From assembly GCA_023213235.1 (NCBI GenBank), contig CP096137.1, positions 383,587 to 447,586 on the forward strand: a DNA stretch of 64,000 nucleotides, written 5' to 3'. This document shows positions 13,385 to 62,128 of the stretch, in pieces; within the stretch, counting starts at the first letter, position 1; each line of letters starts with the position of its first letter. A program made the translations under genes and the position numbers. Under the pieces are notes generated by a model. It did no database searches. It saw only the letters and a list, made by a program, of their open reading frames with translations, and had not been told where the DNA came from. The stretch comes from Elusimicrobiota bacterium. GTDB lineage: Bacteria; Elusimicrobiota; Elusimicrobia; UBA1565; UBA9628.

Positions 13385-14184
13385 GCGAGAGGCGCGGCCT
13401 CCGGCGGACGGCGCACGGACACGCCCGAGGCGAGCAGCGTCTCCTTGAGCTCCCGCAGGCCGCATTTCTTGAAATGGAGGATGGACGCCACCGACACCGC
13501 GTCGGCGCGGCCTTCCGTCACCGCGGCGAGCACGTGCGCCGCTCCGCCCGCGCCTCCGCAGGCGATGACGGGGATGCTCACCGCCGTCGCGAGCTTCGCG
13601 GTGAGATCCAGGTCGAAGCCCTTGAGAGTGCCTTCCCGGTCCACCGAGGTCACGAGAATTTCGCCGGCGCCCAGGTCCGCGGCGCGGCGGGCCCAGTCGT
13701 AGGCGTCCACTCCGGTCTTCTCGCGCCCGTTGTCGGTCAGGGCTTCCCAGCGTCCCGGCGCCTGGAGCTTGGCCTCGATGGAGACGACGATGCATTGGGA
13801 GCCGAAGCTTCGGGCGGCTTCGCGGATGAATTCGGGGTTGGCGATCGCGGCGGTGTTGACGGCCACCTTGTCGGCGCCGGCGCGCAGCAGCTTGTAGACG
13901 TCGTCAAGCTTCCGCACGCCGCCGCCCACCGTCAGGGGGATGAAAATGTCGGCGGCGGCGCGCTCGACGATGTCGAGCAGGTTGTTGCGGCCGTAAAGGC
14001 TCGCCACGATGTCCATGTAGAGGAGTTCGTCGGCGCCTTCCTCATAATATCGGCGGGCATGCTCGGCGGGGTCGCCGACGACTCGAAGGCCCTCGAGGTG
14101 GACGCCTTTGACGATGTTGGGGCCCTTGATGTCCAGCCGGGGGATGATTCGCACGCGCGCCCGGGCCGGAGGCTGGCTGTTCAT
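13381..14184 (-). CDS. HisF-like cyclase subunit (HisF2) of the sugar amidotransferase system
   Basis: 267 residues, TIM barrel. RVRIIPRLDIKGPNIVKGVHLEG at the start, TVGGGVRKLDD and VNTAAIANPEF for the phosphate-binding loops, SIPVIACGGAGG near the C-terminus. It partners HisH to channel ammonia. An upstream in-frame start (14223) is rejected because it would put the promoter -10 box inside the gene; ATG 14184 lies 9 nt after TATAAT, so the message is leaderless or nearly so. First gene of the operon running to 2298. Confidence 0.85.
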   Translation of the reverse strand: MNSQPPARARVRIIPRLDIKGPNIVKGVHLEGLRVVGDPAEHARRYYEEGADELLYMDIVASLYGRNNLLDIVERAAADIFIPLTVGGGVRKLDDVYKLLRAGADKVAVNTAAIANPEFIREAARSFGSQCIVVSIEAKLQAPGRWEALTDNGREKTGVDAYDWARRAADLGAGEILVTSVDREGTLKGFDLDLTAKLATAVSIPVIACGGAGGAAHVLAAVTEGRADAVSVASILHFKKCGLRELKETLLASGVSVRRPPEAAPLA

Positions 14185-14193
14185 TATTTGAAC

Positions 14194-14223
14194 ATTATAC
14201 CCCTCTCGACGGCGGCCCGTCAA
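14194..14223 (-). promoter_or_regulatory. Sigma70-type promoter of the nonulosonate operon
   Basis: Read on the minus strand: -35 TTGACG (14218-14223), 18-nt spacer, -10 TATAAT (14194-14199). It lies between the methyltransferase stop (14238) and the hisF-like ATG (14184) and is the best promoter match in the window. The expected transcript start is only a few bases before the ATG. Confidence 0.8.
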
Positions 14224-14237
14224 TTAGGCTCTCCGGG

Positions 14238-14911
14238 TCAGCGTCGGGCGGCGTCCGGCCGCAGGACGGCGAGGTCGTCGAGGCCGCCGCCCAGCCGCGC
14301 TTCGGCCGCGAGCAGTAGGTCTCCCGCGGCTCCTTCCCACAGGGCCGGGGCGTTCAGGCGAGCCGCCGCCGCCCACAGCAGCGGATGATTATGCGCCTCG
14401 CGCAGCTCCACCCGCCAGCCGCGCGGCTCCGCGGGTTCCGCGGCCGTCCTCTCCAGGCCCCGCTCGAGGTGGCCGGCCGCCGACGCGTTGGGCTCGTGGC
14501 TCAGCAGCGCCGCTCCGGGCTTCATCACGCGAGGCAGCGCGTCGAGCAGGCCGCGCGCGGCGTCGGAGGGCAGATACATCAGCAGGCCGAAGCAGACGAC
14601 GGCGTCGAAGGGCTCGCCGCTCCAATCCGCGACGAAGCGCGCCGCGTCGGATTTGACGAAGGAAACCCGCGGCGGACGCTCGCCCAGGCGGTCCACGAGG
14701 TCCACGACGGTCCACGAGGAGACGCGCGGATCCGCGACGAGGTCCGGAAGGGACAGAAGTGAGCCGCCACCCAGGTCGAGCACGCGCCATGGCGGGGGCC
14801 CAGGCGCCGGGCGAGCAGGCGCGCGGCGCGCCGGCGGTAAGCACGCCACAGGCCCCGGCCGTAGCGGCCGTAGTCCTCGAATTCCTCGAAGCGAGCGGCG
14901 ACGTCGCTCAC
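14238..14911 (-). CDS. SAM-dependent methyltransferase, one frameshift
   Basis: About 225 residues from GTG 14911, which overlaps the epimerase TGA. N-terminus VSDVAARFEEFEDYGRYGRG, then a missing base at G run 14794-14798, after which the motif I loop RVLDLGGGSLL and the later FDAVVCFGLLMYLPSD (motif post-II/III) are in one frame. Class I Rossmann methyltransferase. The substrate is unknown; position in the sugar operon suggests a sugar or sugar nucleotide. Confidence 0.75.
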
Positions 14912-60693: not shown

Positions 60694-61484
60694 ATCTCGG
60701 AGGTCTGGGCCGCGGCCGCCGCGTTGGCGCGCACGCCCAGCCACAGGTAGACCGACGTGATCGCCAGCGTCAGCAGGCCGGACAGCGGCACGACGAAGGG
60801 CATGAACGCGAGAATAAGCCGCACGAGCAGGGCCGCCGTCTGGGCGTGGATCGCGAGCTGGAAAAGCGCGCCGAAGCCGAGCGTGCCGGAGGCCAGCGAG
60901 TTCATCAGCAGGCCGAACACCGCGTACAGGAGGCCCGCGAAGGCGGTCCAGGCGGCGGCGAAGACGAAGAGCGTCAGGATCGCGAGCGGGTAGACGACCT
61001 TCTTGAGGGCGCCGGCGGCGTCGCGGAAGAATTTCGAGTCGACGACGACGGGCCGCTCGACCGCGGCCTTCGAAAGGTCGTAGATCTCGATCTTGCCCTG
61101 CTGCTGCTCGAGGTAAAGCGCGTTGTTCGTGAGGTAGGCGAGGACCTTCGCGTCCTGCAGGGCCTGGAGGGTGACGGGCTCCGTGCGGGCCGTGTCGATC
61201 ATCACGGCGACCTCGGCGGCCTTGGGGTGGACGAGGCGCTTCGGGGCCGCCTCGGGGCTCGTGACCTTGCCGCCGGAGAACGTGAGCACGGGGACCTCGG
61301 CGGCGAGCCAGGCGAAGGTCTCGTCGACGACGGGGCCGACGCGCAGCTGGATCGCCAGCGAGCCGCCGACGGTGAAGATGAGGCTCAAGAAGAGGAGGTA
61401 GAGGACGGTGCGGCTCGTCTTCTCCTGGGCGAAGCGGCGGTAGGCCTGCGTCGAGGCGATCGAGCCGAGGAGGTCTTGGATCAT
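60690..61484 (-). CDS. DUF1189-like membrane protein
   Basis: 264 residues. One helix near 27-47, a soluble loop with LTFSGGKVTSPEAAPKRLV and MIDTARTEPV, then helices from residue 165 (ILTLFVFAAAWTAFAGLLYAVFG, LILAFMPFVVPLSGLLTLAI). The layout matches DUF1189 proteins. Role unknown. TAGACT (61491-61496, minus strand) ends 6 nt before the ATG, heading the operon to NamZ. Confidence 0.72.
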   Translation of the reverse strand: MIQDLLGSIASTQAYRRFAQEKTSRTVLYLLFLSLIFTVGGSLAIQLRVGPVVDETFAWLAAEVPVLTFSGGKVTSPEAAPKRLVHPKAAEVAVMIDTARTEPVTLQALQDAKVLAYLTNNALYLEQQQGKIEIYDLSKAAVERPVVVDSKFFRDAAGALKKVVYPLAILTLFVFAAAWTAFAGLLYAVFGLLMNSLASGTLGFGALFQLAIHAQTAALLVRLILAFMPFVVPLSGLLTLAITSVYLWLGVRANAAAAAQTSEI

Positions 61485-61522
61485 GCCGACAGTCTAGCAA
61501 GGCGGACGGGGATGGACAAGGG

Positions 61523-61551
61523 TTGACGAAAACGCGACGAGACCTTAAACT
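61523..61551 (+). promoter_or_regulatory. Sigma70-type promoter, leaderless
   Basis: TTGACG (61523-61528), 17-nt spacer, TAAACT (61546-61551), then 6 nt to the ATG at 61558. Confidence 0.75.
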
Positions 61552-61557
61552 TGGGGC

Positions 61558-62128
61558 ATGAGATCGCGCCTGCGCCTGCTCGCGGCCGTCCAGGCCCTCT
61601 TCCTGATGGGCGCCCTCGGCTGCGGCGACGAGGAGGGGGCGGCTGCGGCCCGGCCCCGGAGAAGAAGGGCGAGGAGCAGGCCGCCGCGCCGTCCGCGGGG
61701 GCCGCGCGTCCGGCGGAGCGGGCGCGGCGCCGGAACTCAAGACGACCGAGGGGCGGCGCAGCGTGCCGAGGGCGTACCAGCGCCCCGAATCCGGCGCGCG
61801 CGATCGCGACGCCGAGCGCTCGGACCGGGGTATCTCCAAGCCCAAGATCGCGAAGTCGACCGAGGCGGCCGCCGCGGCCGCGGTCCCCGCCGCGATGCCG
61901 CTGAAGCCGCCGCCCGTGAAAGTCCTGCGTCGCAAGGTGGACGGAGTGCCCGATCGCGTCGAGATCTCGTGCCGGATGCTGGCCGCCGACCCGGGGCCGG
62001 AGTGCGCGACGTCGTCGAATTACCTCGAGATCAAGCTGCGCTGCTGCCCCGACGGGGCCGTCGAGCGCTGCCGCCCGACGAGGGACGGCGTCGTGATCGT
62101 CGGCCGCGGCTGCGAGCCGGCGCCCTAG
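61558..62128 (+). CDS. Small lipoprotein, unknown, two frameshifts
   Basis: About 190 residues. Signal and lipobox LMGALGC, a charged Ala-rich linker (PAPEKKGEEQAAAPSAG), then a Cys-containing domain (RVEISCRMLAADPGPECATSS, LRCCPDGAVERCRP, GRGCEPAP). The frame slips near 61650 and 61720; both are repaired by one added base each. Ends overlapping the RND gene stop by 4 nt. No family recognised. Confidence 0.62.

Follow-up and report, generated by a model that had tools for sequence, protein, structure and literature searches.

Putative leaderless promoters at a fixed distance before start codons in an Elusimicrobiota bacterium

Introduction

In the 64,000-nucleotide stretch of an Elusimicrobiota genome analysed here (the window), hexamers resembling the -10 box of a promoter repeatedly end 6 or 7 nt before a start codon. 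This raised the question of whether RNA polymerase would begin the transcript right at that codon's first base, which would leave the mRNA without a leader. A first-pass annotation of the window had listed 17 such starts, with an eighteenth (47701) also fitting, and had proposed that leaderless transcription was the default, as known in Deinococcus. On the evidence of sequence, it is very probable that sigma-70-type -10 boxes make transcription begin with the start codon itself, so that an estimated fifth to third of the apparent first genes would have leaderless mRNAs.

The listed sites

At each of the 18 listed positions (Table 1) one strand carries the start codon given in the list, ATG in 15 cases and GTG in three, and the hexamer has the form TANNNT in 17 of them; the exception is CACAAT at 19701. 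The stated lack of a Shine-Dalgarno (SD) sequence was borne out, as no match of at least 5 nt was found 3–13 nt upstream of any of the 18, and the four matches of 4 nt all lie in or overlap the -10 box; this absence is partly by construction, the -10 box occupying the SD position. Sixteen of the 18 genes are backed, since 13 of the 17 scanned proteins (51986 was outside the scan) have a Pfam match and three more (31712, 47701 and 61558) have orthologue starts nearby in relatives, while neither was found for 19701 in the relatives compared. The divergent promoters of 31033 and 31064 have one AT-rich core in common.

Table 1. Putative promoter elements of the listed starts and of one contrast gene, with the arrangement in the relatives compared.
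Element	Coordinates (strand)	Distance and start codon	Product	In relatives
-10 TAGGAT	16823..16828 (-)	7 nt, ATG 16815	NAD-dependent epimerase	no syntenic orthologue in stretches compared
-10 TAGAAT	19617..19622 (-)	7 nt, ATG 19609	RmlD family	no syntenic orthologue in stretches compared
CACAAT (weakest case)	19689..19694 (+)	6 nt, ATG 19701		
-10 TAGGAT	22056..22061 (-)	6 nt, GTG 22049		TAGCAT at 5–6 nt in 3/3
-10 TATTCT	24927..24932 (-)	6 nt, ATG 24920	class IV aminotransferase	
-10 TAGAAT	31041..31046 (-)	7 nt, ATG 31033	response regulator	spacing 6–8 in 5/5
-10 TATACT	31052..31057 (+)	6 nt, GTG 31064	GNAT acetyltransferase	ATG at identical spacing in G209
-10 TACAAT	31700..31705 (+)	6 nt, ATG 31712		TATAAT-6-ATG in 3/3; starts 3–4 codons off extrapolated N-terminus
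-10 TATAAT	37203..37208 (+)	6 nt, ATG 37215	CbiX family	kept in 2/2
-10 TAAGAT	37791..37796 (+)	6 nt, ATG 37803	nucleoside diphosphate kinase (ndk)	6 nt in 3/6, 9–12 nt in 3/6
-10 TATCCT	46155..46160 (-)	7 nt, ATG 46147	trypsin-like/PDZ protease	best in stretches compared: 34% partial match
-10 TACCCT	47709..47714 (-)	7 nt, ATG 47701		TATCCT-6-ATG in the one relative with orthologue
-10 TACAAT	47800..47805 (+)	6 nt, ATG 47812	alpha/beta hydrolase	TACAAT-6-GTG in 3/3
-10 TAGAAT, SD AGGAGG	48932..48958 (+); -10 48932–48937, SD 48953–48958	ATG 48967 (contrast gene)	peptidase S46	SD kept in 4/4
-10 TATAAT	51739..51744 (-)	6 nt, GTG 51732	PRK/uridine kinase family	kept in 4/4
-10 TAGAAT	51993..51998 (-)	6 nt, ATG 51986	putative gene (66-aa ORF)	no homologue in stretches compared
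-10 TACAAT	52072..52077 (+)	6 nt, ATG 52084	hydrolase	TAGAAT-6-ATG in 2/2
-10 TAGACT	61491..61496 (-)	6 nt, ATG 61484	DUF1189	kept in 1/1
-35 TTGACG	61523..61528 (+)	exactly 17 nt upstream of -10 of 61558		
-10 TAAACT	61546..61551 (+)	6 nt, ATG 61558		both boxes and spacing identical in G196

Enrichment of TANNNT outside the window

The count against background and against genes inside operons, which had been proposed as a check, was run outside the window on 800 kb of the genome with 766 called starts, using a gene caller that employed no upstream motif, and it upheld the pattern: TANNNT ended 6 or 7 nt (d6, d7) before 93 of the 766 starts where 6.9 were expected (Poisson P ~6e-70). The 93 comprised 72 starts at d6 and 21 at d7, against a background averaging 3.4 per position at d=13–40 with a maximum of 10; the mode was exactly 6, and at d=8–12 the motif barely exceeded background. 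In the window itself the hexamer stood at d6 in eight and at d7 in four of 62 called starts; among the annotated starts of 50 kb of E. coli K-12 the figures were 0 and 2 of 43.

In whole-genome counts, TANNNT-N6-ATG occurred 478 times versus 133 at the phase-matched spacing N12, and TANNNT-N6-GTG 199 times versus 86. The claim that GTG starts obey the same spacing is thus supported by this control as well as by the listed GTG sites, and the GTG excess over N12 was present in all 19 genomes of the genus that were counted. With the pattern read backwards as the control no GTG excess was seen (199 versus 206); this control was judged unsuitable, as it turns TA, which is rare in coding DNA, into AT. 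Counted from the hexamer, the position 6 nt after 2,111 TANNNT sites held ATG 135 times (mean 23.3 at d13–30) and GTG 42 times (mean 21.0), and TTG (22) and CTG (29) were not enriched there; enrichment of ATG and GTG only is consistent with the translation predicted from a 5'-terminal AUG or GUG. Viewed from the promoter, 43% of 108 non-coding extended -10 sites (TGnTAnn[AC]T, the highest value among eight patterns tried) adjoin an ATG or GTG at 6–7 nt, as do 11.5% of all 1,213 non-coding TANNNT sites.

Promoter grammar and alternative explanations

The hexamers are likely to be sigma-70-type -10 boxes, judging by what surrounds them. The G at -14 that marks an extended -10 (TGn) was present in 68% of 103 d6 sites, and TTG preceded the -10 at a gap of exactly 17 nt in 17 of 136 cases, with 0–5 cases at each of the other gaps between 8 and 35 (25 of 207 at 17 nt in a promoter-centred recount). 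The d6 starts have A or G at +1, and 72% of 80 have C at -1 versus 47% of 344 internal starts, a moderate preference given 55% at other first starts and 48% at 25 d7 starts. A C at -1 with A or G at +1 is the usual initiator preference. Under the favoured reading the hexamers would act as promoters, the 5' end of the mRNA would fall on the start codon, and ribosomes would bind through the 5' AUG or GUG and the initiator tRNA, not through an SD.

In an appreciable fraction of genes, the same promoters might instead start transcription 1–6 nt ahead of the codon, yielding near-leaderless transcripts. The enrichment at d7, which lacks the C preference at -1, and the placement of the -10 box 9–12 nt from the codon in eight of the 30 ndk loci, both of which could give leaders of this length, speak for it; the mode at exactly 6, the slight excess at d=8–12 and the prevalence of C at -1 with A or G at +1 at d6 starts speak against it, and this alternative is considered rather unlikely. 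If, on the other hand, the boxes were internal or secondary promoters whose genes are mainly transcribed from further upstream with ordinary leaders, as leadered and SD-led first genes such as 48967 might encourage one to think, the exact 6-nt spacing would be without reason, and the same weight matrix placed at other distances found only 0–4.5%; such an explanation is quite improbable.

Still less credence is given to a translation signal, i.e., an AT-rich or S1-binding element. AT-rich biases near starts are known from other phyla and are discussed as possible S1 sites (PMC5397173), but TTG at exactly 17 nt together with the TGn extension is the grammar of a promoter, and the element is nearly missing before operon-internal genes, which need translation as well. 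That the pattern arose by chance and by the choice of examples could be suspected of a list compiled after looking, one of whose 18 members is not TANNNT; the count in the stretches outside the window refutes this, and its probability is practically nil. Leaderless transcription from -10 boxes is the preferred reading.

Operon position and Shine-Dalgarno use

The proposal that leaderless transcription is the default held insofar as leaderless-type promoters occur genome-wide and are conserved, and is overstated as regards their share. A mixture fit assigned 29% of 168 test starts that are divergent or follow a same-strand gap of 31–100 nt to the leaderless type (38% in the training half; the test set was the even-numbered stretches plus the window), compared with 3% of 171 starts after a same-strand gap of more than 100 nt and 4% of 364 operon-internal starts. 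By strict match the three non-internal classes gave 89 of 464 starts (19%), and the majority of apparent first genes lack the 6–7-nt pattern. The hexamer stood at d6 or d7 in 54/182 divergent starts, 30/111 after gaps of 31–100 nt, 5/171 after longer gaps, 16/364 internal starts and 2/228 overlapping same-strand genes. Predicted leaderless genes of the TANNNT type are accordingly found as single or operon-proximal genes, except for the low share after longer same-strand gaps, which is provisionally ascribed to missed genes and miscalled starts. Because starts are miscalled, the leaderless shares should be underestimates.

The 3' tail of the 16S rRNA contains CCUCC, the anti-SD being intact (GGATCACCTCCTTTCC). 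An initial finding of no SD use at all, based on a comparison with the reversed upstream window, was rejected, as GGAG reversed is GAGG; a position-specific profile was used in its place and shows SD use inside operons. An SD 4–10 nt upstream is found in operon-internal genes as a class and in 48967, a predicted leadered and SD-led gene, and not in the 18 listed starts. Operon-internal genes and some first genes appear to pair their SD with the 16S tail. Translational coupling is likely at the many internal starts that overlap a preceding stop.

Conservation and proposed switching among relatives

Orthologues of 13 of the 18 listed sites were compared in seven relatives, and 31 of 38 comparisons had TANNNT 5–8 nt upstream of whichever start lay closest to the aligned N-terminus. 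Ten genes chosen for lacking the motif served as comparators and had it in 1 of 39 (of 16 comparator positions, 59026 is no gene start and 14154, 17751, 18713, 23250 and 36059 were without orthologue; three rows without a nearby start were left uncounted). The corrections of starts that ORF length alone gets wrong stood, the -10 and the start being kept in all relatives with an orthologue of 51732 (4/4) and 47812 (3/3), and in the one with a syntenic orthologue of 31064 (among 40 other genomes this GNAT gene has two relatives only, one of them distant). The putative -10 of 47812 speaks against a start at the in-frame ATG 47806.

The distance between box and codon has not remained fixed in every gene. 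For the aminotransferase gene 24920, the promoter core is kept within the genus while the -10-to-ATG distance ranges from 6 to 39 nt. Among the 30 ndk loci (of 35 matches), an SD of at least 5 nt was found in 0/23 with the -10 within 12 nt, and AAGGAG or AAAGGAG in 7/7 with the -10 at 19 nt or more, a contrast drawn from about two lineages (genera g9 and g6). The aminotransferase table likewise covers 30 of 36 matches and that of PRK 30 of 38, 13 of them remote paralogues; at PRK loci of >50% identity, the spacing was 6–7 nt in 12/17, own locus included. It is tentatively proposed, at somewhat less than even chances, that in the host's order a promoter can pass back and forth between a leaderless and an SD-led state, gene by gene within one genus. 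A leader bearing an SD would be gained or lost through short indels in the interval between the -10 box and the start codon, both of which are fixed.

Distribution in Elusimicrobiota and other phyla

A survey of the phylum, covering all rows of families f1–f6 and f9–f15, 8/90 of f7 and 8/59 of f8 (where G141 and G146 were picked for looking high), showed the leaderless signal to be strongest in the host's own order and weaker in the sampled f7 and f8; it was found in none of the 11 sampled genomes from other classes (11 of 105 rows). An apparent excess in f6 and f14 under the reversed control was removed by the N12 control, except in one of nine f6 genomes. In a further survey of 38 genomes, none of the 26 placed outside Elusimicrobiota by title or matching counts had an excess like the host's under the reversed control, an insensitive measure, and no conclusion on other phyla was drawn. 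The insensitivity of raw counts is shown by a Deinococcus deserti plasmid, where 11 of the 111 starts annotated on 150 kb have TANNNT at d=6 and yet the whole record gives no raw excess over the reversed control (39 versus 43); for D. radiodurans MP1 the raw count was 17 versus 10.

Relation to known systems

The comparison with Deinococcus is apt as a likeness and wrong if taken as kinship: the nearest named genomes are Elusimicrobia, with LysS at 88% to JACPOW010000035.1, and the host is thus not a member of Deinococcus-Thermus. In that group, the first T of TANNNT lies ~12 nt upstream of the start codon, and a -35 box at an appropriate distance raises expression (PMC12340547; Zheng et al. 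2011, PMC3160421). The same fixed position above background is found here, along with the coexistence of SD-led genes. The phylum, the pronounced extended -10 G and the TTG at 17 nt are different, and so is the share, which by extrapolation is ~15% of all genes here versus 39.4% in the table of Zheng et al. (PMC3160421) or ~30% in the 2025 paper (PMC12340547). Actinobacteria, with a mean of 19.2% in the same table (PMC3160421), are similar in high GC, TANNNT and share, though an unrelated lineage. In Mycobacterium tuberculosis, 5' ends are reported to have been mapped (PMC3898074); the leaderless genes here are predicted from sequence. The leaderless-transcription class of GeneMarkS-2, as quoted in PMC9581028, likewise has leaderless and SD-led genes side by side in a genome. 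No description of leaderless expression in Elusimicrobiota was found in the open-licence literature, where the tables of domain-wide scans (PMC12340547, PMC9581028) may include the phylum; it is thus apparently a known kind of expression so far undescribed in this phylum.

The findings extend to Elusimicrobiota a mode of expression seen in other bacterial phyla. They also bear on the calling of starts, as 43 of 136 leaderless-type starts in the sample differ from the longest-ORF start and the gene caller missed or misplaced 31033, 31064, 47812, 47701, 51986 and 61558. Relatives that carry leaderless and SD-led versions of one gene lend themselves to a comparative study of the switch between the two modes, and, if the proposed interchange is true, the group would be a natural experiment on the gain and loss of leaderless translation in bacteria.

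Leaderless-Type Starts and Their Excess over Chance

The window spans bases 383,587–447,586 of a single contig of 3,802,950 bases (stated completeness 83.61%; GC ~69% in the 864 kb sampled). One 16S gene was found, its anti-Shine-Dalgarno (anti-SD) tail intact. Compared with named genomes, the window's lysyl-tRNA synthetase is best matched in Elusimicrobia bacterium NC_groundwater_611 (88%) and next in other Elusimicrobia. Genes were called in the window and in 40 evenly spaced stretches of 20 kb from coding statistics and start-codon type, with upstream motifs unused. The first-pass annotation had listed 18 starts in the window at which a −10-like hexamer ends 6 or 7 nt before the start codon. 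TANNNT stands at exactly these distances in 17 of them, the start with CACAAT falling outside the pattern; three are GTG. Of the 17 proteins compared with Pfam, 13 gave a match.

Features of the window discussed in the text
Position	Gene or start	Upstream elements
19701	listed start	CACAAT
24920	aminotransferase	GATTT..TATCCT-like core
31033	divergent from 31064, 30 nt apart	−10 at 7 nt
31064	divergent from 31033	−10 at 6 nt
37803	ndk (nucleoside diphosphate kinase)	
48932–48967	peptidase S46 (start 48967)	−10 at 29 nt, AGGAGG at 8 nt
51786–51986 (−)	66-aa ORF	TAGAAT-6-ATG
61558	listed start	TTGACG-17-TAAACT-6-ATG; relative G196 likewise

Among 766 called starts outside the window, TANNNT ended 6 nt before the start in 72 and 7 nt before it in 21, over a background (positions 13–40) with a mean of 3.4 and a maximum of 10. 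Genome-wide, TANNNT-N6 precedes ATG 478 times versus 133 for the phase-matched N12 control, and GTG 199 times versus 86. The excess was also seen when gene calls were not used, with ATG 6 nt downstream of TANNNT 135 times (23.3 expected, as derived from spacings 13–30) and GTG 42 times (21.0 expected), and none of the remaining trinucleotides at this spacing exceeded expectation more than 1.45-fold. Frames of at least 100 codons are opened by 94 of the 135 ATGs (70%), by 64% at 7 nt and by 17–60% at the other spacings listed.

Mixed Initiation and Promoter-Like Structure

Half of the starts that are divergent, or that lie 31–100 nt after a same-strand gene, served to train a motif model, which fitted 38% of them; in the test set of 168 starts, taken from the even-numbered stretches and the window, the share was 29%. 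The model fitted 4% of 364 internal starts; where a same-strand gap of >100 nt precedes the start it fitted 3% of 171, and when placed at other distances 0–4.5%. Strict matches were found at 89 of 464 non-internal starts (19%), and from the two kinds of share the estimate is therefore "a fifth to a third". Among 108 non-coding TGnTAnn[AC]T sites, a start follows at 6 nt in 38 and at 7 nt in 12, an excess of 43%, the highest among eight patterns tried. Leaderless-type starts would make up roughly 15% of all genes, an extrapolation rather than a measured figure, from genome-wide excesses of 345 ATG and 113 GTG at 6 nt and ~130 ATG at 7 nt (scaled up from the sample) in ~3,850 genes.

SD tetramers occur 4–10 nt before internal starts at 28–37 of 364 per position (3–11 at positions 15–30), and before other first genes at 15–26 of 348 (background 3–13); 136 internal starts overlap the preceding stop by 4 nt. 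The leader and AGGAGG of the peptidase S46 gene are kept in 4 of 4 relatives. Since SD sequences precede both classes of gene and are conserved at this one, SD use is retained and the genome is mixed in its initiation mode.

At aligned 6-nt sites the −10 is extended, with G at −14 in 68% (n = 103) and T at −15 in 46%. TTG lies exactly 17 nt 5′ of the hexamer, the classical sigma-70 distance, at 17 of 136 leaderless-type starts (each other gap from 8 to 35, 0–5), in 25 of 207 cases in a promoter-centred recount, and at 27 of 845 sites without a start 5–12 nt downstream (other gaps 7–17). C at −1 is found in 72% of 6-nt starts (n = 80), versus 47% of internal (n = 344) and 55% of other first starts (n = 348); this preference was not seen for 7-nt starts (48%, n = 25).

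Conservation and Apparent Changes of Initiation Mode

In the stretches compared from seven relatives, at least one orthologue was available for 13 of the 18 listed sites. Across 38 orthologue cases, the distance from TANNNT to the start codon closest to the aligned N-terminus is 5–8 nt in 31, 9–12 nt in three (all ndk) and larger in four (all aminotransferase); ten comparison genes, picked because they lack the motif, have it at 5–8 nt in 1 of 39 cases. The AT-rich core between the divergent starts is identical in relative G209 (L221/L218), with both spacings kept and spacer bases changed. This shared core, with its back-to-back −10 boxes, would act as one bidirectional promoter from which each of the two genes is transcribed without a leader. 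Among 91 divergent pairs in 864 kb, alternative in-frame starts included, 14 have leaderless-type starts on both sides, and in 41 only one of the two is of this type. The 66-aa ORF with TAGAAT-6-ATG, which lacks a homologue in the relatives' stretches compared, is possibly a small leaderless gene.

Of 30 ndk loci in the family, the 23 whose −10 lies within 12 nt all lack an SD of at least 5 nt; with the −10 at ≥19 nt, 7 of 7 carry AAGGAG or AAAGGAG (Fisher P 5e-7, yet only about two lineages). Loci with leader and SD are L140, L141, L143, L145 and L148 in genus g9, and L149 and L151 in genus g6 of the same family. The aminotransferase core is discernible in most members of the genus at differing distances from the ATG, which looks like leader gain and loss at one promoter.

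Aminotransferase core-to-ATG distance in the genus
Distance	Genomes	SD
6 nt	source genome, G204	
8 nt	G198, G193	
10 nt	G194, G199	
25–26 nt	G195, G201	AAGGAGG
37 nt	G196, G197, G200	GGAG in each
37 nt	G209	none by the rule used
39 nt	G208, G210	

Known Context and Distribution in the Phylum

Zheng et al. 2011 (PMC3160421) describe the TANNNT signal, which matches the one found here, report leaderless genes in 207 of 953 bacterial genomes and compare initiation-mode changes between orthologues; "Elusimicrob" is absent from the text. A 2025 paper on Deinococcus-Thermus tested the motif experimentally and scanned the bacterial domain (PMC12340547), and Elusimicrobia have been placed among classes with an ordinary anti-SD (PMC10783764). 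The kind of expression is thus already known, and the lineage appears, within the open-licence papers searched, to be undescribed.

Ratio of TANNNT at 6 versus 12 nt (d6/d12), with z >3 as mark
Group	d6/d12	Genomes with z >3
own genus	1.65–4.14	19/19
family f3, genus g16	3.03	
family f2, genus g14	2.36	
own-order genera g6, g9, g10, g13	~1.1–1.25	none
f8 sample (two genomes picked as high)	1.32	7/8
f7 (8 of 90 genomes compared)	1.28	6/8
f15	1.26	1/2
f4	1.23	
f6	1.06	1/9
f5 and f9–f14	0.88–1.09	
other classes (11 genomes sampled, pooled)	1.05	0/11

The ratio is lower in AT-rich genomes because of more chance matches, which inflate the background, so that density counts too: extra sites per Mb, computed from counts, number ~91 in the source genome and ~75 in the f7 sample. 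From ratios and densities together, the trait is strongest by ratio in its own order, yet it is not confined there, and in the eight f7 genomes TANNNT-N6-ATG repeatedly exceeds N12, if more weakly, which suggests that this family has leaderless genes too.
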